Assembly: GCF_007679345.1 (NCBI RefSeq) | Contig: NZ_VEGH01000001.1 | Coordinates: forward strand, 434,001-498,000 | DNA from: Cellulosimicrobium cellulans | GTDB lineage: Bacteria > Actinomycetota > Actinomycetes > Actinomycetales > Cellulomonadaceae | Reading direction: 5' to 3' | Length of the DNA: 64,000 nt | Shown: piece after piece, positions 23,541-35,707 of the stretch | Layout of the letters: each line of letters starts with the position of its first letter | Numbering within the stretch: position 1 is the stretch's first letter | Made by a program: the position numbers and the translations under genes | The notes under the pieces: model-generated | Told to the model about the DNA's origin: nothing | The model's database searches: none | What the model saw: only the letters and a program-made list of their open reading frames with translations

Positions 23541-25496
23541 ATGTCAGCAAGGTGGAAGGGCCGGGTCACGTTCCTGGCCGTGGGGACGCTCGCCGCGGCG
23601 AGCCTGACCGGTGCCGTCGGCACCGCGGCGTTCGCCGAGGACGGCGACGCGGTGACGCCGACGTCCGGCGCGGAGTTCGACGCGACCGCGCGGGCGCTGC
23701 TCGCGCTCGACGGCGTCGAGGCGGTGACGGTGGACGCCGACGGCACCGTCGTCGTGGCGACCACGGAGGACGTCGGGGACCTGCCCGCGGAGGCGGAGCA
23801 GTTCGTCGACGAGCACCGGAACGTCGACGTGCTCGTGCTGGACGGCCCCGTGGAGGCGCTGGCCGCGACCGACGTCGTGGGCGGCGCGGGCTACGCGTCG
23901 TTCGACCCGGCGTCCCTGGACGGCGACTCCGAGGACGTCCCCGTCGGGCTGTGCTCGATCGGGTTCTCCGGGTTCACCCCCTCGGGGGCGCCCGCCGTGA
24001 TCTCGGCCGGGCACTGCGCCAAGGACGGGCTGTTCTCCGAGAGCGTCCTGTCGGTCCCGGCGGGCGACCCCGCCGGTGGCGGCTCCGCGTTCGATGTGCT
24101 CGCGCCGCTCGGCACGCTCGGCTTCGCGCAGTACGGCGGGCCCGGCAACACGCACGGCAGCGACGGCGACACCGCGAGCACGGACGTCTCCGTGATCGAC
24201 GTGACCAACGCCGGCCTGACGCTGCGGCCCGCCGTCACCGACTGGACCACCGTGTCCGACCTGTCGCTGTCGACCCGGCCCGTGACCGCCGTCGGCCGCG
24301 CGCAGCTGGGCCAGCCGGTGGTGAAGAGCGGCCGGACGACCGGGTTCACCTCCGGGACCGCGCTGTCCTCCGGCTGGGCCGAGGTCTCGGGCCGCTACGT
24401 GTACGGGTTCTTCAGCGCCGTCGTGTCCGACAGCGGCGACTCCGGCGGCGCCGTGCTGCAGGGCGGCACCGCGATCGGGCTGGTGTCCGGCGGCACCACG
24501 GCCGGCGGGCAGCCGGTGATGTTCGCCGCGGACCTGGAGACCGCCCTGGCCCGCACCGGCGGGTACACGGTGGCGCTCGACCTCGCCGCGCCCGTCCTCA
24601 CCGGACCGGCGTCCGGCGCGACGATCGTGCCCGGGGCCATGATCAGCGGCACCGCCCCCGCGGGCACGGTGCTGTCGGTCGACAGCGACCGGGAGGCGCC
24701 GCAGACCGTGACCGTCGCCGCCGACGGCACCTGGTCGTTCGCCGCGCCCACCACCCGCGGCCCCGTCTCCTACACGCTGGTCGCCCGGAGCGGGTACTCG
24801 GCGTCCCCGGCGGTGCAGATCGCCTACGACGTCGTGCCGGCCACCGTCGTGACCCGCCCCGGTGACGGCGAGCGGGTCCTGACCGCCCTGCAGCGGATCG
24901 CCGGCGTCGGAGAGCCGGGCGAGACGGTCGAGCTGTCCGGCGCGGTCGCCGCGACGCTCGTGGTCGCCGACGACGGCACCTGGGAGCACCCCGTCGACCT
25001 GTCCTACGGCCGGTACTCGGTCACCGTGGCCCAGGTCAGCGGCGTGCCGTCGGTGCCCATGACGAACGCCTTCGAGGTCGTCCCGGTCGCGCCCGCGATC
25101 ACCGGCCTCGACGACGGCGCGACCTTCCCCGAGGGCGCCGCCCCGACCACCGTCTCCGGGACCGGCCTGGACGGCGCCACCGTCGAGGTCACCGTCGGCG
25201 ACCGCGCGGCGGTGCCGGCGGACGTCACGGCGGGCGGCTGGGCCCTGGCGCTCGGCGACGCGCTCGGCGCGGGTCACCACGTCATCGCCGCGACCCAGAC
25301 CATCAACGGCGCGGTCAGCGACGCGACCGCGGTCGGGATCACCGTCACCGCGACCGCCGCGCCCGCGGTGACGGCGACCGACGACCCGCTCGCCCGGACG
25401 GGTGCCGGGACGGCCGGCCTGATCGCCGCGATCGCGGCGGTCCTGCTGCTGGGCGGCGCCGCCGCGACCTACGCCGCGCGCCGTTCCGCGGCGTAG
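23541..25496 (+). CDS. secreted chymotrypsin-like serine protease anchored by LARTG
   Basis: 651 aa. A signal peptide (residues 1-32, ending TAAFAED) precedes a short pro-region (about 33-130) and an S1-family protease domain of the streptogrisin/alpha-lytic kind. His is in VISAGHCAKDG, the Asp region is DGDTASTDVSVIDV, and the Ser is in SDSGDSGGAVLQGG. After about residue 350 come three Ig-like Big repeats (LTGPASGATIVPG..., VVTRPGDGERVLT..., ITGLDDGATFPEG...). The C-terminus has LARTG at about 617, a hydrophobic stretch and AARRSAA, a class-E-sortase LAXTG signal. It is therefore covalently attached to the cell wall and acts outside. The ATG at 23541 follows GAGGATCCGTC. Confidence 0.88.
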   Translation: MSARWKGRVTFLAVGTLAAASLTGAVGTAAFAEDGDAVTPTSGAEFDATARALLALDGVEAVTVDADGTVVVATTEDVGDLPAEAEQFVDEHRNVDVLVLDGPVEALAATDVVGGAGYASFDPASLDGDSEDVPVGLCSIGFSGFTPSGAPAVISAGHCAKDGLFSESVLSVPAGDPAGGGSAFDVLAPLGTLGFAQYGGPGNTHGSDGDTASTDVSVIDVTNAGLTLRPAVTDWTTVSDLSLSTRPVTAVGRAQLGQPVVKSGRTTGFTSGTALSSGWAEVSGRYVYGFFSAVVSDSGDSGGAVLQGGTAIGLVSGGTTAGGQPVMFAADLETALARTGGYTVALDLAAPVLTGPASGATIVPGAMISGTAPAGTVLSVDSDREAPQTVTVAADGTWSFAAPTTRGPVSYTLVARSGYSASPAVQIAYDVVPATVVTRPGDGERVLTALQRIAGVGEPGETVELSGAVAATLVVADDGTWEHPVDLSYGRYSVTVAQVSGVPSVPMTNAFEVVPVAPAITGLDDGATFPEGAAPTTVSGTGLDGATVEVTVGDRAAVPADVTAGGWALALGDALGAGHHVIAATQTINGAVSDATAVGITVTATAAPAVTATDDPLARTGAGTAGLIAAIAAVLLLGGAAATYAARRSAA

Positions 25497-25631: not shown

Positions 25632-26315
25632 GTGCGGTTCGCGGCCGTCGCCGACCAGGACGCGACCCCCGCGGAGGTCGTCGAGATGGCGGTCACCGGG
25701 GCCGGCGTGCTCGCCGCCGTCGTCCGCACCGCGGCACCGGGCGTGCGGGCGTTCCACCCCGCGGGAGCCGCGGACGCCGAGGGTTTCGCCGACCTCACGG
25801 TCCCCGGCGACGCCGTCACCGGACTCTGGGAGGTGCAGGGGACCTCGGTGGCCCCGGTGCCGTACGACGGCGTCCTCGCCGTCGACCACGCCACCTCCGC
25901 GTCCCTGGCGGGCGCGCTGGCGGTGCACTACGGCGAGGTCGGCGCCGACGGGCAGGTGGCGCGGTGGCACTCCGCCGGGACGCTCGCCGAGCCGGTCCCC
26001 TACGGCGACGCCCTCACCCGCGTGCCCGCCGTCAGCGCGGAGCGGCCCGCCGTCATCCCGGTGCGCGTCTCGCTGCCCGACCCGAGCCTCGTCACGGGCG
26101 ACCCCGGCCAGACGCTCGCCGTGACGGCGACCTTCACGGTGAGCTACCTCGACGGCGGTGGGGGTGGCGGAGAGGCCGTGCCCCCGCCGGTCGGGCCGCC
26201 CGGCGGCGGCGACCTCGCGGTCACCGGCGCCGGGCCGTGGGCCGGGCTGCTCGCCGCCCTGCTGCTCGCGGCGGGCGCGTACCTGCGCAGCCGGCGCCGA
26301 CGGGCCACCGGCTGA
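25632..26315 (+). CDS. LAVTG-anchored surface protein lacking a signal peptide (probably 5'-truncated)
   Basis: 227 aa from the first available start (GTG 25632). The body is beta-rich (VVEMAVTGAGVLAAVV, LTVPGDAVTGLWEVQG, SERPAVIPVRVSLPDPSL, LAVTATFTVSYLDGGGGG), and the C-terminus has LAVTG at about residue 195, a hydrophobic segment and SRRRRATG, a clear sortase signal. But the frame is open only back to 25509, where it enters the protease terminator. No signal peptide, no Shine-Dalgarno and no better start exist. A wall-anchored protein needs secretion, so the 5' end was probably lost. It lies tail-to-tail with the signal peptidase operon, 12 bp away, and may be a relic of that surface system. 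Confidence 0.55.
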   Translation: MRFAAVADQDATPAEVVEMAVTGAGVLAAVVRTAAPGVRAFHPAGAADAEGFADLTVPGDAVTGLWEVQGTSVAPVPYDGVLAVDHATSASLAGALAVHYGEVGADGQVARWHSAGTLAEPVPYGDALTRVPAVSAERPAVIPVRVSLPDPSLVTGDPGQTLAVTATFTVSYLDGGGGGGEAVPPPVGPPGGGDLAVTGAGPWAGLLAALLLAAGAYLRSRRRRATG

Positions 26316-26327
26316 CGCCGCACGTCG

Positions 26328-26918
26328 TCATGGTTCGGCCGGGCTTTCGGCAGCCGGGCCCGCGGACTCGCCTCCACGGGCCCGGCCGTTCTGCTTCCCC
26401 GCCCGGACGGGGTACGTCGCCAGCGCCGTGATCCCGACGAGCACCGCGACAGCCAGCACGACGTGCTGCTGCAGCGCCGCGACCGCCCGGCCCAGGCCCG
26501 GCACCGTCCACAGCACCCGCCCCACCTCGGTCACGGTGTACGGCCGGGCGTCTCGCTCGTCGTTCGCGTCGCCCTGCAGCACCAGCTCGACCGCGGTCCC
26601 GCCCGAGGTGCCGGCGACCGTGCCGGCAGGCGTGACCTGCACGACCCGGTGGGTGACCAGGCCGTCGCGCTCGTGGCGCGGGACGGTCACGACGTCGCCG
26701 ACCGCGACGGTGTCCGCCGGCACGGTGCGGGCCAGGGTGAGCGCCCCCACCGGGATGGTGGGCTCCATCGAGCCGGACACGACGATCGCCGGCCGGACGG
26801 AGAGCAGCAGGCACAGCACGACCGCCAGGAGGCTGAGGACGCCGACGACGGCGGCCACGTCGAGCAGCACCCGCTGCGCGCCGAGCAGGACGCGCGTCGG
26901 CCGGTCGGTCGCCGTCAC
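26328..26918 (-). CDS. SipW/ER-type signal peptidase I (Ser/His)
   Basis: 196 aa. An N-terminal membrane segment (about 15-42) is followed by VVSGSMEPTIPVGALTLAR with the nucleophile Ser. Later, DVVTVPRHERDGLVTHRVVQV carries the conserved His that replaces Lys in the archaeal/ER/SipW class. The LQGDANDERD box and a second membrane segment near the C-terminus complete the family pattern. It cleaves the AFTDAA-type signal peptides of the proteins encoded upstream in the same operon. Last of seven genes; the GTG overlaps the stop of the preceding gene (GTGA). By analogy SipW processes TasA and TapA in Bacillus biofilm fibres; the role here is inferred from family and gene order. Confidence 0.9.
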   Translation of the reverse strand: MTATDRPTRVLLGAQRVLLDVAAVVGVLSLLAVVLCLLLSVRPAIVVSGSMEPTIPVGALTLARTVPADTVAVGDVVTVPRHERDGLVTHRVVQVTPAGTVAGTSGGTAVELVLQGDANDERDARPYTVTEVGRVLWTVPGLGRAVAALQQHVVLAVAVLVGITALATYPVRAGKQNGRARGGESAGPAAESPAEP

Positions 26919-27604
26919 GCGGCAGCCACGGACGTCGCGTCGAACCGCACCGTCAGGTGCGCCTGGCCCCCGTTGAGGGCGGTCGTGGCCGGGTCCTCGA
27001 GGTAGTGCACCAGCAGGGTGAGCGTGGTGTCGGACCCCGCGGCCCCCGCCGTCCACGGCTCCCCGTCCTCGACGGGGTCGGCGGCCCGCGCGGCCAGCAC
27101 GCCGAGGTCGGCGGTCGCGCCGAGCGGCACGCCGCCCTGCGGGTCGTCCGGGCCGGTACCGAGCAGCACCTCGCCGCCCGGGCCGAGGACGGTGACGCGG
27201 AGGTACGGGGTGATGTCGGGGGTGCCGGCCACCGCCTCCCCCGCCACCGTCGCCAGCACGTCGGCGGCGAGCTCCGGGTGGTTCGCCGCCACCCGGACCT
27301 GGGACTGCACCGTCCGGCCCGGGACCAGCGCGTCGCGGTCCGGGACGTCGACCGGCATCGGCGCGCCGGGCTCGGCGTCGTGCGCGACGCCGCCGGCGTC
27401 CACCAGCACGATCTCGAACGGGTCGGCCGAGCCGACGCCCTCCGTGCCGAGGTTCAGGTGGGCGGCGTCGGTGAACGCCGCCGCGGTGGCGACGGTGCCG
27501 GCGACCAGCACGAGCGCGAACGCCGCGAGCGGCGCCAGCCGGCGCCGTGCCGGCCACCGGGGGGGCCGGGGTCCGCGTGCGCTCCCCCGGGGCGCGCGGC
27601 TCAT
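26915..27604 (-). CDS. TasA/camelysin-like protein with SipW-dependent signal peptide
   Basis: 229 aa. A basic N-terminus is followed by a long hydrophobic segment ending GTVATAAAFTDAAHLNLGT (about residues 35-55), the actinobacterial SipW-dependent signal. The mature part is beta-rich (VDVPDRDALVPGRTVQSQVRVAANHPEL, YLRVTVLGPGGEVLL, LTLLVHYLEDP), ending HLTVRFDATSVAAA. Similar ends (TFDGESV, FDGSTS) occur in its operon paralogues. It has no anchor, so it is probably secreted and assembled. The ATG at 27604 overlaps the RCC1-gene stop; the signal peptidase gene follows by overlap. Confidence 0.85.
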   Translation of the reverse strand: MSRAPRGSARGPRPPRWPARRRLAPLAAFALVLVAGTVATAAAFTDAAHLNLGTEGVGSADPFEIVLVDAGGVAHDAEPGAPMPVDVPDRDALVPGRTVQSQVRVAANHPELAADVLATVAGEAVAGTPDITPYLRVTVLGPGGEVLLGTGPDDPQGGVPLGATADLGVLAARAADPVEDGEPWTAGAAGSDTTLTLLVHYLEDPATTALNGGQAHLTVRFDATSVAAA

Positions 27605-29073
27605 GACGTCGCCGCCACGGTGCCCGGCATGATCAGGTTCGTCAGGCCCTGGTTCGACCCGGTGGGCGTGCTCGTGGTCGCGAACCCGTCCCGCACCAGG
27701 GAGTTGGTGTTGTTGCGCGCTCCCTGCTGCCCGCCGCCCCAGAGCCCGATCGACCCGTCCGCGCGCAGGGCCGCGCCCGTGTACCCGGTGCCGGCGACGG
27801 ACTCGACCACGCCGAGCGAGTCGAGCCGGGTCGGCAGGGTGGGGTTGGTGGTCGACGCGCCGCCGGTGGCCGGGTCCAGGCCGCCCGCCAGGGTGTACCG
27901 ACCCCAGACCCAGGCGTAGCCCTGCGTGTCGAGCGCGATCACGTAGTCCACGGTGGGGGCGATCATCTGCGCTCCGATCGGCATCTCGACCGGGGTCGGG
28001 GTGTTGTTCACCGCGGCCGTGCCGCTGGGCCGCCCGGTGCCCCAGAAGCTCGCGTTGCCCCAGCCGAGCACGGTCCCGTCGGCGAGGATGGCCTGATTGC
28101 CGTAGTAGTGCCCGGTCAGCGACCGGATGCCGCAGGTGTCCTCGGGCGAGTTCGCCACGACGCCGACGGCCTCGCAGCCCGAGGTGGTGTAGGTGGACAG
28201 GGAGGCCGACTGGATCGGGCTGTTCGCGTTGGCGGTGGTGTTGTCGCCGCCAGGGGCGCCGGCCAGCGTGCCGGCGGCGTTCGAGAACCCCCACCAGAGC
28301 ACGCCGCTGAGCGGGTCGGCGGGGTCGGTGTTCCCGCGGATCGCCCAGCCGTTCCACATGCCGGCGCCGATGGAGTGCACCCCGGTGAGGATGCGGGTCG
28401 GGGTGGCGCTGGAGGTCGAGGAACCGCCTTGGCCCGTGATGCCGCGGGCCTGGGCGTAGCCCCAGGTGTAGACGTCGCCGGTGTCCGTGAGTGCCATGAA
28501 CACGCCGGACGAGGACGTGAGGTCGACGACCGTGCCCGGGATGTCGACCTGGCCCGGCTGGGTGAACGGGACGGTGGTGCTCGGCCGGCCCATCACGTTG
28601 TTGGACTGGTTGCCGCCCCAGGTGTAGACCCGACCGTCGTCGGACAGGGCCGCGATCCCCGTGTACGCCACGTTCGTGGGGTAGAAGTTGTCGAGGCTGG
28701 TGCCGGCGGTCTCGACCACCCGCCGCGCGCCGTCGGGGTGGTCGTCGGACGGCAGGGTCAGCAGGGTGACCGCCGCGTTCGACGCGACGGTGGCGGCCCC
28801 GGTCCCGGACAGCCCGTTGCCCCGGAAGCCCCAGATCGCCAGCGTGCCGTCGTCCTGCACGGCGGTGAAGGTGCCGTTGAGGTAGGTCACCTGGGGGACG
28901 AACGTGGTGGTGGGGGTGCGGAACACGTCGGTCGTGGCGGTGGCGCGGTCGGTGTACGCCGCGGTGGTCGCCGGCACCGCCGTGGCGGCCAGCCCGAGGA
29001 GGACCAGTCCGGCGGTGCCGGCCAGGACGCGGCGAGCGCCGCGGCGGCGGCTACGGACGCGGGCGGGCCTCAC
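27601..29073 (-). CDS. secreted RCC1-repeat (beta-propeller) protein
   Basis: 490 aa. A signal segment ends AATAVPATTAAYTDRATATTDVF, a SipW-like AYTD variant. The rest is a series of about 50-residue RCC1 repeats: each has a GxAALSDDGRVYTWGGNQ-like core (FTAVQDDGTLAIWGFRGNG, IAALSDDGRVYTWGGN, VFMALTDTGDVYTWGYA, NQAILADGTVLGWGN, YVIALDTQGYAWVWGRY, GAALRADGSIGLWGGGQ), consistent with a seven-bladed propeller. Extracellular RCC1 proteins in bacteria are thought to bind proteins or sugars. Here it is embedded in a TasA/SipW operon, suggesting an adhesive or tip component of the fibre. The GTG at 29073 overlaps the stop of the LATTG protein. Confidence 0.88.
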   Translation of the reverse strand: MRPARVRSRRRGARRVLAGTAGLVLLGLAATAVPATTAAYTDRATATTDVFRTPTTTFVPQVTYLNGTFTAVQDDGTLAIWGFRGNGLSGTGAATVASNAAVTLLTLPSDDHPDGARRVVETAGTSLDNFYPTNVAYTGIAALSDDGRVYTWGGNQSNNVMGRPSTTVPFTQPGQVDIPGTVVDLTSSSGVFMALTDTGDVYTWGYAQARGITGQGGSSTSSATPTRILTGVHSIGAGMWNGWAIRGNTDPADPLSGVLWWGFSNAAGTLAGAPGGDNTTANANSPIQSASLSTYTTSGCEAVGVVANSPEDTCGIRSLTGHYYGNQAILADGTVLGWGNASFWGTGRPSGTAAVNNTPTPVEMPIGAQMIAPTVDYVIALDTQGYAWVWGRYTLAGGLDPATGGASTTNPTLPTRLDSLGVVESVAGTGYTGAALRADGSIGLWGGGQQGARNNTNSLVRDGFATTSTPTGSNQGLTNLIMPGTVAATS

Positions 29074-29687
29074 GATCCCGCCCCCCTGGTCGCAGCGGCG
29101 CGGCGCCGGTGCACGACGCGCAGCAGCAGGCCCGTCGCGGTGAGCGCGGCGGCCAGCAGCACCAGCGCGAGCACCTGCCCGCCGGTGGTGGCGAGGACCT
29201 CGGACTGGAACGGCGGTGCGGGCGGCGCGCCGGGCGGCGACTCCTGCGTGGCCACCAGCCCGAAGGTGAGCGTCAGCCCCACCCCCTGCACCGCGTCGGT
29301 CGCCGTCGCCGGCAGCGTCGCGGTGCCGCGCACGGTGATCCCCTCGGCGGGCAGGACACCGAGGTCGACGGGCGTCGCCCCCAGCTCCGCGGCGGTGCCC
29401 TCCGCCAGCACGTCGCCCGCCGGGTCGCTGAGGGTGAGCTGCAGCGCGTCCGGCCCGTCGGCGAGCGGCCCGGTCCCGCCCTCGACGACGAGGACCAGGT
29501 CGGTCGGGGCGGTGGCGTCGGCGGGCCGGGCGGTGACGTCGAAGCCGGTGCTGTGGCCCGGGTAGGGCACGGCGACCTGCACGGTGGTCGTCGACCCGGA
29601 CACCAGGTCCGGGCCGGCCGCGCCGGGCAGGGCGATCCCGCCGGCGGTCAGCGCGGCGGCGAGCAGCACCGCGCCCACGGCGATCAT
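29070..29687 (-). CDS. LATTG-anchored surface protein of the SipW operon
   Basis: 205 aa. A signal peptide (residues 1-24, GAVLLAAALTAGGIALPGAA) precedes a beta-sandwich-like body with GFDVTARPADATAPTDLVLV and ALQLTLSDPAGDVLAEGT. The sorting signal LATTG is at about 165, followed by LVLLAAALTATGLLL and RVVHRRR. It is the only wall-anchored product of the operon, so it is the natural candidate for tying the assembled material to peptidoglycan. A clear paralogue without the anchor lies at 35117-35707 (shared FHITARPADGGPEALTLVLG-like blocks). The ATG overlaps the preceding stop and the following GTG overlaps its own stop. Confidence 0.85.
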   Translation of the reverse strand: MIAVGAVLLAAALTAGGIALPGAAGPDLVSGSTTTVQVAVPYPGHSTGFDVTARPADATAPTDLVLVVEGGTGPLADGPDALQLTLSDPAGDVLAEGTAAELGATPVDLGVLPAEGITVRGTATLPATATDAVQGVGLTLTFGLVATQESPPGAPPAPPFQSEVLATTGGQVLALVLLAAALTATGLLLRVVHRRRAAATRGAGS

Positions 29688-30286
29688 GAGGTGCTCCCGT
29701 CGAACTGCAGGCCGAGGACCATCGCCCGGCCGTAGTAGTAGGGGTTGCCGAGCGCCGTCTCGAGCGTCACCGACACCTGGACGCGCCGGGCCACGCCCTG
29801 GGTCCACTCGCCGGGCAGCGCGACCGGTCCGTCATCGGGGTCGTGGTCGGTGACGACCGGCTCGCCGTCGACGGCGACGGTGAACAGCGCGACGTCGTAC
29901 GGTTCGGCGCCCGGCCCGTCGACGCCGGGGTCGGGCGGCAGCGGCTCGGGCCTCAGGTTCAGCAGCGTGAGCACGACCGGGCCGGTGGCGGGCGTCGTCG
30001 TCACGACGTCGGCCTCGACCGCCGGCGCCCCGCCCGGACCCGGGACCACGGTGTCGATCACGTACGGGTCCGGGTTGCCCTGCACGACGGTCCCGGTGGT
30101 GTCGAGGAAGGCGATGTCGTACGCCCCGCCGAGGTTCCCGAGGTCGGCCTCGGCGGCGTCGGTGAACGCCGCGTCCGTGATCGCGGTGCCGCCGACCAGC
30201 AGGACGACCCCGGCGGCGGCCGCGAGGGCCAGCGCCCGCCGGTCGAATCCCGTCCGCGTGGCCGGTCGCCACCTCCGCGCGGTCAC
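29684..30286 (-). CDS. TasA/camelysin-like protein with AFTDAA signal
   Basis: 200 aa. The signal segment (about residues 18-45) ends AITDAAFTDAAEADLGNLG, the SipW-type cleavage region. The mature part has beta-strand-rich stretches (YDIAFLDTTGTVVQGNPDPY, GPVVLTLLNLRPEPLPP, VALFTVAVDGEPVV, VQVSVTLETALG), ending YYYGRAMVLGLQFDGSTS. The final FDG motif resembles the other operon proteins. Predicted secreted subunit. It is translationally coupled on both sides (GTGA at its start, ATGA at its end). Confidence 0.82.
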   Translation of the reverse strand: MTARRWRPATRTGFDRRALALAAAAGVVLLVGGTAITDAAFTDAAEADLGNLGGAYDIAFLDTTGTVVQGNPDPYVIDTVVPGPGGAPAVEADVVTTTPATGPVVLTLLNLRPEPLPPDPGVDGPGAEPYDVALFTVAVDGEPVVTDHDPDDGPVALPGEWTQGVARRVQVSVTLETALGNPYYYGRAMVLGLQFDGSTS

Positions 30287-30825
30287 CGGCTCGTCCCCTC
30301 GAACGCGACCTGCACCCCGGTGCGCCAGTCGGGCAAGGTGTTCAGCGGCAGGGTGATGCTCAGGTCGAGCACCCGCTCGTCGGCGCGGTCGGCCCCCACC
30401 TCGCCCGCCAGGGGCACCCGGATGGTGTCCGCGGGACCGGCCGCCAGGACGGCGCCGTCCTCGGCGACGGTCACCTGCAGCGCGGCGAACAGGTCGCCGG
30501 TCTCCGGGTCCGGGTCCACGAGGTCGAGCACCACGTCGGCGGGCGTGCCCGAGGCGTTGCGCACCGCGACCCGCACGTCGAGCGTGCCGCCCGGGGGCAG
30601 CGTGTCCTCGGCGAGCACGAGGTCCCACGGCGCGGTGCTCGGGTGCCAGTCCGCTGCGGCGGGCTGCCAGTCCGGGGCGGTGCCGGCCGCGGACTCCAGG
30701 GCGAACGTCACCCCGGTGAACTCCACGCGGACGTCCTCGCGCTCGACGACCTGGGCCGCCGTGACCGCGACGAGCAGGCACACCGGGACCACGAGCACCG
30801 CAGCACGGCGCAGCGACGCGCGCAT
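30283..30825 (-). CDS. secreted beta-rich protein of the SipW operon
   Basis: 180 aa. The signal segment (residues 8-24, VLVVPVCLLVAVTAAQ) lacks the AFTD signature, so it may use the ordinary signal peptidase or remain as a membrane anchor. The mature chain has WDLVLAEDTLPPGGTLDVRVAVRN, PADVVLDLVDPDPETGD and LDLSITLPLNTLPDWRTGVQVAFEGTSR, a CARDB-like beta sandwich by appearance. The ATG at 30825 has GGAGGAGG 6 nt upstream, the strongest Shine-Dalgarno in the operon. It starts the block of six overlapping genes, 71 bp after the first gene. It could be the assembly or minor subunit analogous to TapA, but that is only a positional guess. Confidence 0.75.
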   Translation of the reverse strand: MRASLRRAAVLVVPVCLLVAVTAAQVVEREDVRVEFTGVTFALESAAGTAPDWQPAAADWHPSTAPWDLVLAEDTLPPGGTLDVRVAVRNASGTPADVVLDLVDPDPETGDLFAALQVTVAEDGAVLAAGPADTIRVPLAGEVGADRADERVLDLSITLPLNTLPDWRTGVQVAFEGTSR

Positions 30826-30896
30826 CCGACCTCCTCCGGGTCCGGGGCCCGGCCGGGCCGCCGACGGGCCGCCCGACCGGGTGACGACGATCCGGG
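30826..30896 (-). other. GC-rich spacer after the first fibre gene
   Basis: This is the only real gap inside the operon (71 bp). It contains the 14-bp palindrome GGCCCGGCCGGGCC and several complementary G/C runs, so the transcript could fold and partly stop RNA polymerase. That would make the first gene more abundant than the rest, as expected for a major subunit. Confidence 0.35.
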
Positions 30897-31556
30897 TCAG
30901 ACGGACTCGCCGTCGAAGGTCGCCTGCAGGAAGGCGCCCTTGCCGGACAGGTCGTTGTCGGGGAAGGTCGCGCCGGACTCGGTCTGCGACAGCAGCCGGA
31001 TCGCGATGGTGACCGTGCTCTCCTCGTCGGCCGCCAGGTCGTTCAGCGCCAGCGCCGACACCTCGGCGAACGTCAGGTCCGTCTCGGCGATCGCGGTGGC
31101 GCCCAGCGAGGTGGCGGGCATGCTGATGCTGAACCGGAGGCTCGACAGGTAGTTCGCGTCGGTGACCACGCCGTTCGCCGCGTCGTCGGGCAGCTGGCTC
31201 AGCGTCAGCGTGAGCGACGAGTTGAACACCGGCGAGTCGTTGCGCACCGGGATGACGACGCTGATCGGGTCGGACCCCGGGAACACGGCCTGGGCGCCGT
31301 CGATGGCGATCGGCACGCCCGCGGGGTCGTCGGCCTCCTGCCACTGGCCGGCGATGAACGCGCCCTCCGCGTCCGTGGCGCCCACCTGGATGTTGTAGGT
31401 GCTGTCCGCGCCGCCGATGCCGTTGGTGCCCAGGTTCAGGTGGGCGGCGTCGGTGAACGCTGCGGTGGTGATCAGGGCGGCAGCCGCGGCGAGCGACCCC
31501 CAGGCCAGCAGCGCCTTGCGCTGCCGTGCCTTGTCCACGACGGTCTCGGTGCTCAT
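30897..31556 (-). CDS. putative major TasA/camelysin-like fibre protein, SipW-dependent
   Basis: 219 aa. The short N-terminus MSTETVVDKARQRKALLAWG leads into a hydrophobic segment ending ALITTAAFTDAAHLNLGTNG, the textbook SipW-dependent signal (cleavage before or within AFTDAA). The mature part is a single beta-rich domain of about 175 residues, with VSVVIPVRNDSPVFNSSLTL and ESTVTIAIRLLSQTE, ending FLQATFDGESV. It is relatively acidic. It is the first gene of the operon, with its own Shine-Dalgarno (GGGGGACG) and a promoter with an inverted repeat. Position and composition suggest the main structural subunit of an extracellular fibre, by analogy to TasA/CalY. Confidence 0.85.
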   Translation of the reverse strand: MSTETVVDKARQRKALLAWGSLAAAAALITTAAFTDAAHLNLGTNGIGGADSTYNIQVGATDAEGAFIAGQWQEADDPAGVPIAIDGAQAVFPGSDPISVVIPVRNDSPVFNSSLTLTLSQLPDDAANGVVTDANYLSSLRFSISMPATSLGATAIAETDLTFAEVSALALNDLAADEESTVTIAIRLLSQTESGATFPDNDLSGKGAFLQATFDGESV

Positions 31557-31599
31557 CTCGTCCCCCAACGCGGCTGCAGGAGTCAGTGTGGCGCAGATC

Positions 31600-31642
31600 A
31601 CACTACGCGCGGGAATGGGTGACGACTACCCCTTTCGGGTGA
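31600..31642 (-). promoter_or_regulatory. promoter and inverted-repeat site of the TasA/SipW operon
   Basis: On the minus strand TAGTGT (31605-31600) is a TANNNT -10. Upstream, at about -35, lies TACCCCTTTCGGGTGA (31627-31642 on the plus strand), an inverted repeat around a TTTC centre (ACCC/GGGT). Its place at the -35 edge fits an activator such as a NarL/LuxR-type regulator. Confidence 0.5.
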
Positions 31643-31706
31643 CTGCCGGGTCGGGCCGGCGCTGCGTAGGTGCTCCCGGCCGCGGCGCTGGACCACTCAC
31701 CACCCG

Positions 31707-31712
31707 TAGCGT
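31707..31712 (+). promoter_or_regulatory. -10 element (TAGCGT), leaderless DUF368 transcript
   Basis: TAGCGT ends 6 nt before the GTG at 31719. No Shine-Dalgarno is present, so the mRNA probably begins at the start codon. Confidence 0.6.
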
Positions 31713-31718
31713 CGACGG

Positions 31719-32627
31719 GTGCCCGACGACGCCCCCGCCGCCACCACGTCCCGCTCCGCCACCCTCTGGTCGCTCGCCCGCGGCGTCCTCGTCGGCGGCG
31801 CCGAGGCCCTCCCCGGCATCAGCGGCGGCACCGTCGCCCTGGTGACCGGCGTCTACGAGACCGCGGTGACCGGAGCGGGCCACGCGGTGACCGCTGCGCG
31901 GCTCGCGCTCACGGACCGCGCCCGCGCCCGCACCGAGCTGGCACGGGTGCGCTGGTCGGTGATCGTGCCGCTGCTGATCGGCATCGTGCCCGGGCTGCTG
32001 GTCACGGTGCGGTTCCTCGCCCCGATGCTGGAGGAGCACCCGGTCCCGCTGTACGGGCTGTTCCTCGGCATGACCGCGGCGGCACTGGTGGTGCCGGTGC
32101 GGATGGCGGGCGCTGGGTGGTCGGCCGGCGAGGTCGCCCGGGCGCTCGTCGTGGCGGCGGTCGTGTTCGTGCTCGTCGGCCTGCCGCCGCAGCACCTGAC
32201 CCCGACCTACCCGGTGGTGCTGGTCGCGGCGGCCGTCGCCGCGTGCGCCCTGGCGCTGCCCGGGACGTCCGGCTCGTTCCTGCTGCTGACGTTCGGGCTG
32301 TACCAGCCGACGCTCGCCGCGGTGAACGACCGGGACTGGGGCTACGTCGCGGTGTTCCTCGCCGGGATGGTGCTCGGGCTGGCGTGCTTCGTGAAGGCCC
32401 TGCAGTGGCTGCTCGAGCACCGGCGCCGCCCGGCCCTCGTGCTGCTGTCGGGCGTGATGGCCGGGGCCCTTCGGGCGCTCTGGCCGTGGCAGGAGGACGA
32501 CCGGACGCTGCTCGCACCCGGTGACCAGGCGGGGCTCGCGGCGGCGATGTTCGTCCTCGGCGCGGCCGCGGTGCTGGGGCTGATCGCCGCGGAACGGCGA
32601 TCGCGGGCGCTGCCCGCCGCCGTCTGA
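31719..32627 (+). CDS. DUF368 family undecaprenyl-phosphate translocase
   Basis: 302 aa polytopic membrane protein. The N-terminus LARGVLVGGAEALPGISGGTVALVTGVY is the DUF368 hallmark (GxxxGxAxxxPGxSGGTxAxxxGxY). A second copy of the theme lies in ALALPGTSGSFLLLTFGLY (about residues 183-205), reflecting an inverted-repeat fold. DUF368 proteins (PopT) were shown to return undecaprenyl phosphate to the cytoplasmic face for peptidoglycan and wall polymer synthesis. GTG at 31719, leaderless by the -10 spacing. It shares its upstream region with the divergent fibre operon, which may matter because both concern the cell surface. Confidence 0.88.
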   Translation: MPDDAPAATTSRSATLWSLARGVLVGGAEALPGISGGTVALVTGVYETAVTGAGHAVTAARLALTDRARARTELARVRWSVIVPLLIGIVPGLLVTVRFLAPMLEEHPVPLYGLFLGMTAAALVVPVRMAGAGWSAGEVARALVVAAVVFVLVGLPPQHLTPTYPVVLVAAAVAACALALPGTSGSFLLLTFGLYQPTLAAVNDRDWGYVAVFLAGMVLGLACFVKALQWLLEHRRRPALVLLSGVMAGALRALWPWQEDDRTLLAPGDQAGLAAAMFVLGAAAVLGLIAAERRSRALPAAV

Positions 32628-33084: not shown

Positions 33085-34038
33085 TCAGCCGCAGGCCACC
33101 AGGACCGCGTCCGGCTCCACCTCGACCGGGTGGAGCTCGGGCCGCGCGCGCAGGAACTGCGCCGGCCGCGCCAGCGCCCCGTCGGCCCACGGCACGTCCG
33201 CGGACACCTCGACGACCAGCGGCGCGATCCGGGTCGCGATCGCGGACGGCGCGCCTCCCGGCGGCGCGAGGGGCGTGATCTGCCGCCCGAGCGCGAGCCC
33301 CGCCGCCAGGCCGAGCGACCCGGACCTCCCGACCAGGACCAGCTCGCCGTCGAGGGGCAGCGCCAGCAGCAGCGCACCCGGCTGGACGGCGGAACCGGTG
33401 ACCGCGGTGGCCACCAGGTCGACCACCGACCGGTGCTTGACCTTGCGCCAGTCCCGCGTCCCGGGCCGGTAGGGCTGGTCGAGGCCCTTGGCCACCAGGC
33501 CGTCGACCCCCAGCCCGGCGAGGTCCCGGAACCAGCGCGCCGCCAGGTCGACGTCGCCGGTCAGCGGGGACGTCGACAGGGCACCGGACCACCCGGCGGC
33601 GAGCTCCTCCAACGCGATCCGCCGCTCGATGAACGGCTGGGGCCGCAGGTCGACGTGCTCGCGCTGGATGACGTCGAACACGACGAACTCGGCCGGCAGC
33701 TGCGCGGCGAAGGCGTCGGGCCGGGCGGCCGCGGCCCGGCGCTGGAGGGCGCCGAAGTCGACGCGCCCGGAGCGCCGGACCACGAGCTCTCCGTCGAGCA
33801 CGGTCCCCGGCGGCACCTGGGCCGCGACGGCCCCCGCCACCTCGGGGAAGTCGGGGGTCAGGTCCGCGCCGTGCCGGGAGCGCAGCAGCGTGCGCGGGCC
33901 GTCGGCGAGCGCGAGCAGCCGCATGCCGTCCCACTTGGGCTCCCAGGCCGTGCCGCCGGGCAGCCCCACGGTCTCGTGCAGGCCGGGCACCGGGCGCGCC
34001 AGGGCCAGGCCGCTGGAGTCCTCCGGGGTGCGGGGCAC
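33085..34038 (-). CDS. ATP-dependent DNA ligase, LigC-like (copy 1)
   Basis: 317 aa. It has the adenylation domain with motif I EPKWDGMR (nucleophile Lys35), RSRHGADLTPDFPEV (motif Ia), DGELVV (motif III region), FVVFDVIQRE, motif IV DGLVAKGLDQPY and motif V WRKVKHRS. A short OB domain follows. There is no polymerase or nuclease domain, so it is the small stand-alone type related to mycobacterial LigC, seals nicked DNA, and may act in repair or alternative end joining. The GTG at 34038 is 6 nt after a TACAGT -10 and has no Shine-Dalgarno, so it is probably leaderless. A close paralogue lies immediately upstream. Confidence 0.9.
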   Translation of the reverse strand: MPRTPEDSSGLALARPVPGLHETVGLPGGTAWEPKWDGMRLLALADGPRTLLRSRHGADLTPDFPEVAGAVAAQVPPGTVLDGELVVRRSGRVDFGALQRRAAAARPDAFAAQLPAEFVVFDVIQREHVDLRPQPFIERRIALEELAAGWSGALSTSPLTGDVDLAARWFRDLAGLGVDGLVAKGLDQPYRPGTRDWRKVKHRSVVDLVATAVTGSAVQPGALLLALPLDGELVLVGRSGSLGLAAGLALGRQITPLAPPGGAPSAIATRIAPLVVEVSADVPWADGALARPAQFLRARPELHPVEVEPDAVLVACG

Positions 34039-34120: not shown

Positions 34121-35086
34121 TCAGGCGTCGGGCCGGCCGGCGGGGTCCGGGTCCACCTCGTCCGGGTGCAGCTCGGGTCGCGCGCGCAGGAACTGCGCGG
34201 GACCGGCCAGAGCGCCCCGGGACCAGCGCACGTCCGCGGAGACCTCGACGACGAGCGGCGCGATCGCCGTGGCCACGGTGGACCCCGGGTCGGCGGTCGC
34301 ACCGCGGCCCGCCACCGGCGTCAGCACCCGCGCGAGAGCCAGGGCGGCGACGGCACCCACGGCCCGGGACCGGCCGACGGGCACCAGCTCCCCGCCGACG
34401 GGCAGCGCGAGGAGCAGGGCGTCCGGCTGGTCGACCGGTCCGGTCACCGCCGTGGCCACGAGGTCGACGGCCGAGCGGTGCTTGACCTTGAGCCAGTCGC
34501 GCGCGCCGCCGCGGTACGGCTGGTCGAGGCCCTTGGCGACGAGCCCGTCGGCGCCGGTGCCGGCGAGGTCGCGGAACCAGCCGGCCGCGACGTCGACGTC
34601 CGCCGTCAGCGGCGACAGCGAGAGCGCGGCCGGCCAGCGCTCCGCCAGCTCGGCGAGCGCCCGCCGCCGCTCGAGCAGCGGCTGGTCGCGCCGGTCGACG
34701 TGCTCGCGCAGCAGCAGGTCGAACGCCAGGTACTCCGCCGGGGCGTGCCGTGCGGCGTACCCCGCCGTCCGGCTGGTCGCGAGCCGGTGCTGCAGCGCGC
34801 CGAAGTCGAGCCGCCCGTCCCGCCGCACCACGAGCTCGCCGTCCAGCACGGTGCCCGCGGGGACGTGGGCCGCGACCGCGGCGACCACCTCGGGGAACGC
34901 CAGGGTCAGGTCCTCGCCGTGCCGGGAGCGCAGCGCCGTGGCGGCCCCGTCCGCGAGCGCCAGCACCCGCATCCCGTCCCACTTCGGCTCCCAGGCGGTG
35001 CCGCCGGGCAGGCCCTGGGTGTCGGCGATGCTCCGGACCGGGCGGGCCAGGGCCGGCTCGACGGGCTCCTCGCGGGCGTGGCGCAC
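34121..35086 (-). CDS. ATP-dependent DNA ligase, LigC-like (copy 2)
   Basis: 321 aa, collinear with copy 1 and clearly homologous over the whole length. Motif I is EPKWDGMR with Lys35 at the identical residue number. RSRHGEDLTLAFPEV, DGELVV, YLAFDLLLREHV, DGLVAKGLDQPYRGG and WLKVKHRS follow. Both copies keep the nucleotidyl-transfer residues, so both should be active. Divergence is greatest in the N-terminal 25 residues and in the linker before the C-terminus. The GTG at 35086 has GAGGAG 8 nt upstream, so it has a normal leader, unlike copy 1. Tandem duplication is evident. Confidence 0.9.
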   Translation of the reverse strand: MRHAREEPVEPALARPVRSIADTQGLPGGTAWEPKWDGMRVLALADGAATALRSRHGEDLTLAFPEVVAAVAAHVPAGTVLDGELVVRRDGRLDFGALQHRLATSRTAGYAARHAPAEYLAFDLLLREHVDRRDQPLLERRRALAELAERWPAALSLSPLTADVDVAAGWFRDLAGTGADGLVAKGLDQPYRGGARDWLKVKHRSAVDLVATAVTGPVDQPDALLLALPVGGELVPVGRSRAVGAVAALALARVLTPVAGRGATADPGSTVATAIAPLVVEVSADVRWSRGALAGPAQFLRARPELHPDEVDPDPAGRPDA

Positions 35087-35116: not shown

Positions 35117-35707
35117 TCAGGCGCTCGTGGCCGGGCGCGGCGTCGGCACCGCCGGCCCGGTGCGGACCACGCGCACCGCGGCGCCCGTCCCGCGGCCGCC
35201 GGGGGCGTGGTCGCCGGTGCCGGGCGACCAGCGGTGGCCGCCGGGGGTGGCGGCGACCCGCACCCCGAGCACCACCGTGCCGCCCGCCGCGGCCGCCGGG
35301 GCCGACTCCGGCAGGGTCGCGGTGCCGTGCACGGTCACCGGCTCGTCACCCGCGGGCCCCAGCGCCACCTCGGCACCGCGCAGCCCGCGCGTGCTCCCGG
35401 TGGCCAGCACCGCGCCCGTGTCGTCGCTCAGGGTGAGCTCGAGGTGGGCGTCGGCGGGACCGGTGGCGTCGCCCAGCACGAGCGTGAGGGCCTCGGGGCC
35501 GCCGTCCGCGGGGCGCGCCGTGATGTGGAAGCTCGACGAGCCGCCGGGGGCCGGGACGGGCACGGGCACCTGGCCGCCCGCGCCGGCGCGCAGGTCGACG
35601 CCCGCGGTCGGCAGGGCGATCGACGCGCCGAGGGCGCCGGCGCCGAGCACGCCGCCGACGGTCAGGGCGATCGCCGCCGCGACCACCCGCGACACGAGCA
35701 TCCGCAT
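35117..35707 (-). CDS. secreted paralogue of the LATTG operon protein, without anchor
   Basis: 196 aa. The signal peptide (residues 3-28, VAAAIALTVGGVLGAGALG) is followed by a body with FHITARPADGGPEALTLVLG, HLELTLSDDTGAVLATG, EPVTVHGTATLPESA and GTVVLGVRVAAT. Each block aligns with the protein at 29070-29687 (FDVTARPADATAPTDLVLV, LQLTLSDPAGDVLAEG, ITVRGTATLPA). Unlike that protein it ends in an Arg/Pro/Gly-rich tail with no LPXTG and no membrane segment. It could be a soluble component of the same surface system. The ATG at 35707 has GAGGGGACGGAG just upstream. Confidence 0.75.
   Translation of the reverse strand: MRMLVSRVVAAAIALTVGGVLGAGALGASIALPTAGVDLRAGAGGQVPVPVPAPGGSSSFHITARPADGGPEALTLVLGDATGPADAHLELTLSDDTGAVLATGSTRGLRGAEVALGPAGDEPVTVHGTATLPESAPAAAAGGTVVLGVRVAATPGGHRWSPGTGDHAPGGRGTGAAVRVVRTGPAVPTPRPATSA

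Follow-up and report, generated by a model that had tools for sequence, protein, structure and literature searches.

The stretch of the Cellulosimicrobium cellulans genome analyzed here (hereinafter, the window; 64,000 nucleotides of contig NZ_VEGH01000001.1) encompasses an operon of seven minus-strand genes, denoted G1 to G7 (span 31556-26328), which, with a probability of about 0.55, makes a TasA-type surface fiber with an RCC1-repeat propeller protein (G5) as a binding subunit processed by SipW. The parts of this system are known, and their combination is new. The preliminary description of the operon had already stated that no characterized system with this combination was known, and the literature agrees: no paper joining SipW with RCC1, or RCC1 with camelysin, was found in the open-licence PMC literature, and the titles and abstract openings of the papers listed for actinobacterial SipW or SipW-type proteins describe no such operon. 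The characterized TasA-type fibers in the literature that we found come from Bacillus and Clostridium, with additional archaeal relatives. If the proposed reading is correct, the actinobacterial version shows how TasA-type fibers gain a defined binding head and provides a second route, beside direct wall anchoring, to display RCC1 propellers.

SipW-type peptidase and the RCC1 protein as its putative substrate

The seven minus-strand genes given in the preliminary description were confirmed in the sequence, as were its three AFTDAA products, one AYTD product with RCC1 repeats, one LATTG product and one Ser/His signal peptidase. The last six genes, G2 to G7, are coupled by five 4-bp overlaps, the sole intergenic gap in the operon being the one that follows G1. 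G7 scores above the cut-off of TIGR02228 (62.5 bits vs 51.85), and the serine of its SGSM motif and the histidine of its THRV motif are kept in 15 of the 15 aligned relatives; thus, a Ser/His signal peptidase of the endoplasmic reticulum/archaeal type is encoded beside its presumed substrates. G7 falls short of NF046067, the Bacillus SipW equivalog (37.8 vs 190 bits). The AFTDAA motif comes after the hydrophobic stretch in G1, G3 and G6, and G5 has AYTD in its place; an aromatic residue at P2' is described as a mark of TasA, which is cut by SipW and only poorly by the ordinary peptidase (PMC10269814). NCBIfam already holds models for SipW-type signals and peptidases; the signal model TIGR04088 gives 16 bits for G6 (cut-off 19) and reports none of G1, G3 and G5, and the cleavage of these proteins is a prediction.

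G5 exceeds the Pfam cut-off for RCC1_2 (39.5 vs 22) and lies below those for PF00415 (20.6 vs 21.7) and PF25390 (88.6 vs 150). A profile of the SipW-linked RCC1 proteins matches the structures of RCC1, HERC2 and UVR8. Over its best segment (residues 22-489), G5 is 92% identical to a protein of Cellulomonas sp. ACRRI, the nearest named relative by operon, which is probably the same as locus L076 and is not counted separately. An aromatic-x-Asp motif after the hydrophobic stretch was detected in 19 of the 26 SipW-linked RCC1 proteins compared to 0 of the 28 unlinked ones (Fisher p 4e-9, kinship ignored; 10 of 64 RCC1 rows, under 280 amino acids or at a locus edge, were dropped, and L076 and L082 were manually assigned to the linked group). 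Among the seven linked misses, L168 and L173 have the motif just outside the search segment, L171 has it along with a missed start, and L182 carries ALWND instead; the remaining three are weighed below. Because the signal type tracks SipW linkage, G5 looks like a SipW substrate, judging by its sequence. By the rule applied here, a hydrophobic N-terminus resembling a signal is present in 26 of the 28 unlinked proteins, which indicates that export of RCC1 proteins frequently proceeds independently of SipW. A sorting signal is absent from G5, and no linked RCC1 protein listed shows a sorting-signal tag (by pattern match only, L169 being uncalled). A tag on the RCC1 protein itself was found in 4 of the 8 unlinked family loci with a called RCC1 gene (L174, L177, L178 and L179); these large proteins bear LAATG, LATTG or LAVTG tags of their own.

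Homologs of G5 are present in 14 of 98 related genomes, in eight of which, including the window's own, they match at E below 1e-100. When the RCC1 profile was run over 221 genomes of the family (Cellulomonadaceae), 40 places were found at E 1e-20 or better, 37 of which were covered. At 28 of these 37 places, in 23 genomes of five genera, SipW belongs to the same run of genes, and at 9 it is missing, a proportion that leans towards linkage given that the profile was built from SipW-linked members. For one of the 28 (G049), linkage is deduced over a contig break; the call of no SipW is weak for L175 and L181, on contigs under 5 kb, and for L183, where RCC1 and SipW are both uncalled. The codon-usage gene caller missed SipW in L076 and most of the RCC1 gene in L169, both of which were seen by other means. 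Recurrence in five genera marks the pairing as a trait of the family and not a peculiarity of a single strain. On a quick tree of 68 SipW proteins, built without bootstrap, the RCC1 label requires 4 changes, at least 2 of them forced by starred branches, against a mean of about 21 after shuffling (L076, L083, L169 and L182, if present, were labeled RCC1 by hand); the label is clustered on the tree, with more than one gain or loss.

The gene order given in the preliminary description is preserved in relatives: all seven genes stand in the same order in six loci of two genera (the window, L076, L077, L081, L084 and L184). Given this conservation and the presence of G1 homologs in 9 of the 98 related genomes, the arrangement is beyond chance. 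Four further loci (L086, L087, L167 and L171, the last from a third genus) share the layout, except that the identity of their third gene with G3 is uncertain; L080, L166 and L082 have a five-gene form without G2 and G4, and L085 is a further variant. There are also four-gene forms, in which an AWTD, QWTD or LWSD protein, or else a camelysin, is accompanied by a sorting-signal protein, RCC1 and SipW. A second SipW-RCC1 cassette, L095, occurs in the window's own genome (contig C11, ~187696-190659), together with a protein with an LGATG-type end; its camelysin passes PF12389 (34.5 vs 22.5 bits).

In the protein at L182:3120-5810 (-), an RCC1 propeller is apparently fused to a camelysin-like segment and a SipW-type signal; its neighbors are SipW and a gene whose start is camelysin-like. 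The segment reaches 71.7% vs 0.1% for the reversed control, and at most 10% with the profiles of G1, G2, G3 and G6; Pfam gives no camelysin match. With this modest support, the protein seems to be such a fusion.

Putative TasA-like proteins, the hairpin after G1 and the G2-G4 module

When alignments from related operons were compared as profiles, the probabilities were 98.8% for G1 and G6, 96.4% for G1 and G3, and 97.5% for G3 and G6; judging by these profiles, the three proteins are paralogs. For G2, the relationship is weaker (79% with G1, 88% with G6), and G4 is unrelated to G1 (0.4%). The structural model of G1, built from 11 sequences (mean pLDDT 71.7, with low values for residues 1-52), was compared to known structures with VIA-align, where TasA chains rank 1 to 3 (Z 8.2, 8.0 and 7.7 over 127, 139 and 144 residues), followed by CanA, the PapG pilin domain and an archaeal bundling pilus, all of the first seven rows being fiber or pilus proteins. 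In Foldseek, the first two ranks are a TasA fiber (8aur, E 1.2e-3) and the archaeal bundling pilus 7ueg (1.6e-3), both at a probability of 1.00, and the third is a type 1 pilus complex. The predicted fold of G1 is therefore closest to that of Bacillus TasA, by modest margins. For the G3 model (mean pLDDT 69.8), many jelly-roll proteins score alike, and a TasA fiber is seventh, in a tie, at Z 6.1. Thus, the relationship of the AFTDAA proteins to TasA that was anticipated in the preliminary description stands for G1, the model of which is nearest to TasA, and the matches of G3 are those of a generic jelly roll. Searched by sequence against solved structures, G1 and G6 gave one chance-level match each. 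Assignment of the three paralogs to camelysin (PF12389) was rejected, G1 and G6 having no Pfam family at all and G3 lacking PF12389.

The gap between G1 and G2 in the window contains a stem of 14 pairs with one mismatch and a loop of 4, which is reached in 21 of 500 dinucleotide shuffles. Stems of 13-18 pairs that at most 25 of 500 shuffles reach follow G1 in all but one of the 14 operons compared, that is, in 13; these operons do not count as independent cases, since L086, L087 and L167 belong to one type, L080 is close to L166, and the window to L076. The folding energy z is -2 or lower in 10 of the 14, the window, at -0.15, not being among them, and none of six other gaps of the same operons has a hairpin. 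More generally, 17 of 30 gaps after genes with SipW signals, some of which are not first gaps, compared to 6 of 29 control gaps, contain hairpins at no more than 5 of 100 shuffles (Fisher p 0.007, kinship ignored). Among the SipW operons lacking RCC1, a strong hairpin (0-1 of 100 shuffles) lies behind the first gene with a SipW signal in L105, L113, L114, L119, L124 and L126, and L088, L091, L099 and L134 are examples without one. A scan of 26000-32000 for consensus promoters and T-tailed terminators, limited to those consensus types, found none of either. The bsaA gene of Clostridium perfringens, which encodes a polymer subunit, is described as being followed by a predicted terminator that yields a short transcript and a read-through transcript into the accessory genes (PMC7395162); by the same logic, the hairpin suggests, by analogy, that G1 is the major subunit.

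G4 ends in LATTG followed by a hydrophobic segment and basic residues, the pattern of the substrates of class E sortases, for which LAXTG is described as the sorting signal in actinobacteria (PMC5148588); the score with the curated LAVTG model is below the cut-off (10.4 vs 27). The window's genome contains three sortase-family matches. In 11 operons (the window, L076, L077, L081, L084-L087, L167, L171 and L184), G2 is accompanied by G4, whereas L080, L166, L082 and L169 contain neither gene; neither was found without the other, although in L078/L079, split over contigs, G4 is missing and G2 was not judged. The genomes of L080 and L166 each hold a second operon with both genes (L087 and L167, respectively). 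Because G2 and G4 are absent together from operons that keep G1, G3, G5, G6 and G7, the G4 module is optional, and G2 is, from this co-occurrence, a likely partner of G4. The LATTG protein had been viewed in the preliminary description as the wall anchor of a complete system; its absence, along with G2, from L080, L166 and L082 contradicts such a fixed part.

Putative fiber architecture and alternative explanations

What sequence comparison or prediction shows is the family membership of the proteins, their SipW-type motifs, the TasA-like fold of G1, its paralogy with G3 and G6, the hairpin and the joint occurrence of G2 and G4; from these, we infer the cleavage by G7, fiber formation, donor-strand exchange, the place and ligand of G5, and the anchoring. 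G7 would cleave the signals of G1, G3, G5 and G6, such that the mature proteins start near the aromatic-x-Asp segment. G1 would be the major subunit, made in excess, with the hairpin lowering expression of the genes behind it, and G3 and G6 minor fiber subunits. In TasA, N-terminal residues 28-38 of one subunit are described as completing the next subunit, and TapA is thought to supply the first strand in the fiber (PMC9674648, PMC10151520). The AYTD motif of G5 begins at residue 39, and the first propeller-type motif lies about 35 residues further on, at residue 74; therefore, there is no room for a beta-sandwich between them, and the N-terminal segment of G5 could donate a strand but not accept one. 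As a donor without an acceptor, G5 would be located at one fiber end: it would be the binding domain of the tip if new subunits join the fiber at the membrane, or it would sit at the base, the location proposed for TapA. If so, a rule for donor-strand fibers would be that a subunit that only donates must occupy an end. G2 and G4 would constitute an optional module tying the fiber to the wall via a LAXTG sortase; G2 might also be a counterpart of TapA.

Tentatively, this scheme can be extended to a modular donor-strand platform common to the family, in which an acceptor-less RCC1 protein with a donor strand exposed by SipW caps the end of a TasA-like fiber, the head slot was gained or lost repeatedly and is taken by other large proteins in some SipW loci, the wall module of G2 and G4 is optional, and the hairpin sets the subunit ratio. 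Other large proteins near SipW in RCC1-free loci fit an exchangeable head without proving it. At one RCC1-free locus, the large protein beside SipW (L112:2599-4167 (-)) contains DUF285 repeats (103 bits).

Several observations weigh against a fiber with an RCC1 binding subunit. G1 matches no Pfam or NCBIfam family and has no sequence relative in the PDB, its likeness to TasA being structural only; best VIA-align Z values of 7-8 are common also among models that lack any clear counterpart, and in Foldseek, a viral P-domain comes right after the fiber and pilus matches (E 2.4e-3), with no E below 1e-3. The fold match of G3 is not specific to TasA, and the profiles of G1, G3 and G6 reach only 0.4, 5.0 and 14.5% against camelysin-type proteins of Cellulomonas. 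Of the 13 hairpins, none is weaker than that of the window (21 of 500 shuffles, folding energy z -0.15), the gap after G1 in L082 has none (384 of 500 shuffles), nor do the four-gene RCC1 cassettes L092 and L117 (48 and 75 of 100 shuffles, respectively). Three linked RCC1 proteins of one type, from L095 (the second in the window's genome), L101 and L102, lack the aromatic residue. Outside the family, RCC1 and SipW are co-located in 0 of the 10 genomes holding both (from a survey of 296 genomes of the class, many of them in pieces, with five RCC1 candidates scored per genome; 62 genomes besides the window's own have RCC1 matches, 10 of them also SipW); to date, the pairing seems to be characteristic of this bacterial family. 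Moreover, TapA, also cleaved by SipW, is described as an accessory protein (PMC9674648, PMC10151520); possession of a SipW signal is therefore not enough to define a fiber subunit. Altogether, the surface-fiber interpretation of the preliminary description is partly supported, by the TasA-like predicted fold of G1, the paralogy of G3 and G6, and the resemblance of the RCC1 protein to SipW substrates; the LATTG protein is removed from its fixed parts, and fiber formation and adhesion by the propeller are putative.

The operon might make a TasA-type fiber, with the RCC1 protein being a separate secreted binder or inhibitor that shares only the peptidase, as BLIP-II is for beta-lactamase; we consider this rather improbable. 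BLIP-II, a propeller of the RCC1/BLIPII group, is described as a secreted binder of soil bacteria (PMC9218822), and G5, which shares the repeats of this group but differs by its SipW-type signal and fiber-type operon, could be secreted likewise, lacking a sorting signal. The unlinked RCC1 proteins, most with a signal-like N-terminus and none with the SipW motif, bear on both sides: they illustrate export of such proteins independent of SipW, but by the same token, an ordinary signal would suffice for G5 if export alone were needed. The L182 protein, in which RCC1 is apparently joined to a camelysin-like segment with a SipW-type signal, also argues against a separate binder, although Pfam lists no camelysin there, as does, weakly, the absence of the name BLIP-II among the 32 PDB matches of the linked RCC1 profile. 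Still less probable, in our assessment, is that G1, G3, G5 and G6 are non-polymerizing wall or matrix proteins processed by SipW, with a common beta-sandwich fold, and that the operon is a surface-protein cassette. This would account for the sequence distance from TasA, the modest fold scores and the equal matches of G3 to many jelly-roll proteins, but not for the fiber and pilus proteins that fill the top rows for G1; furthermore, TasA, CalY and BsaA, each encoded with SipW, are described as forming filaments (PMC9674648, PMC13082335, PMC7395162), TapA being the exception.

The proposed fiber with an RCC1 binding subunit is best compared to three characterized loci. With Bacillus subtilis tapA-sipW-tasA, as described in PMC9674648 and PMC10151520, the operon shares a SipW-type Ser/His peptidase, putative SipW-type signals, a TasA-like predicted fold (of G1) and an organization with overlapping genes; unlike that locus, it includes several TasA-like paralogs, RCC1, a LAXTG protein and a hairpin after the first gene, and no sequence similarity to TasA was detected in it. 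The Bacillus cereus TasA-CalY-CapP system similarly combines two fiber paralogs and an accessory protein in one locus, but is described as sortase-independent, with RCC1 unmentioned in the paper (PMC13082335). In Clostridium perfringens sipW-bsaABCRSD, SipW is needed for the polymer-forming major subunit, the gene of which precedes the predicted terminator mentioned above, but sipW comes first, a two-component system is internal to the locus, and the accessible part of the article notes no RCC1; deletion of a nearby sortase is reported to leave the pellicle and BsaA polymers unchanged (PMC7395162). Display of RCC1 on the actinobacterial surface is not itself new: honeybee Bifidobacterium encode LPxTG-anchored RCC1-repeat proteins that are likewise predicted to be shown on the surface (PMC4449606). 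These propellers have a wall anchor of their own, with no mention of SipW in the text of the paper, whereas G5 is anchor-free and has a putative SipW-type signal.

Gene coordinates and neighboring genes

The likely start of G1 is at 31556, not 31642.

Genes of the operon and the gap after G1, with window coordinates (for genes, including the stop codon)
Feature	Position	Strand	Size	Description
G1	30897-31556	minus	219 aa	TasA-like, AFTDAA SipW-type signal; proposed major fiber subunit
G1-G2 gap	30826-30896	minus	71 bp	stem-loop; proposed attenuator or processing/stability element
G2	30283-30825	minus	180 aa	small secreted protein without AFTD motif; weak relative of G1 and G6
G3	29684-30286	minus	200 aa	AFTDAA protein, apparent paralog of G1 and G6
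G4	29070-29687	minus	205 aa	LATTG protein, putative sortase substrate, accessory
G5	27601-29073	minus	490 aa	RCC1 propeller, AYTD SipW-type signal; proposed binding subunit
G6	26915-27604	minus	229 aa	AFTDAA protein, apparent paralog of G1 and G3
G7	26328-26918	minus	196 aa	SipW-type (Ser/His) signal peptidase I

The convergent neighbors of the operon, at 23541-25496 (+) and 25632-26315 (+), end in LARTG and LAVTG sorting-type signals, respectively; together with G4, three sorting-signal genes lie inside 7 kb. A lone paralog of G4, 39% identical and without LATTG, is located at 35117-35707 (-), ~3.6 kb upstream of the operon, and a fragment related to it is found at the edge of L076. The tandem genes 33085-34038 and 34121-35086 (both -) carry an ATP-dependent DNA ligase domain.

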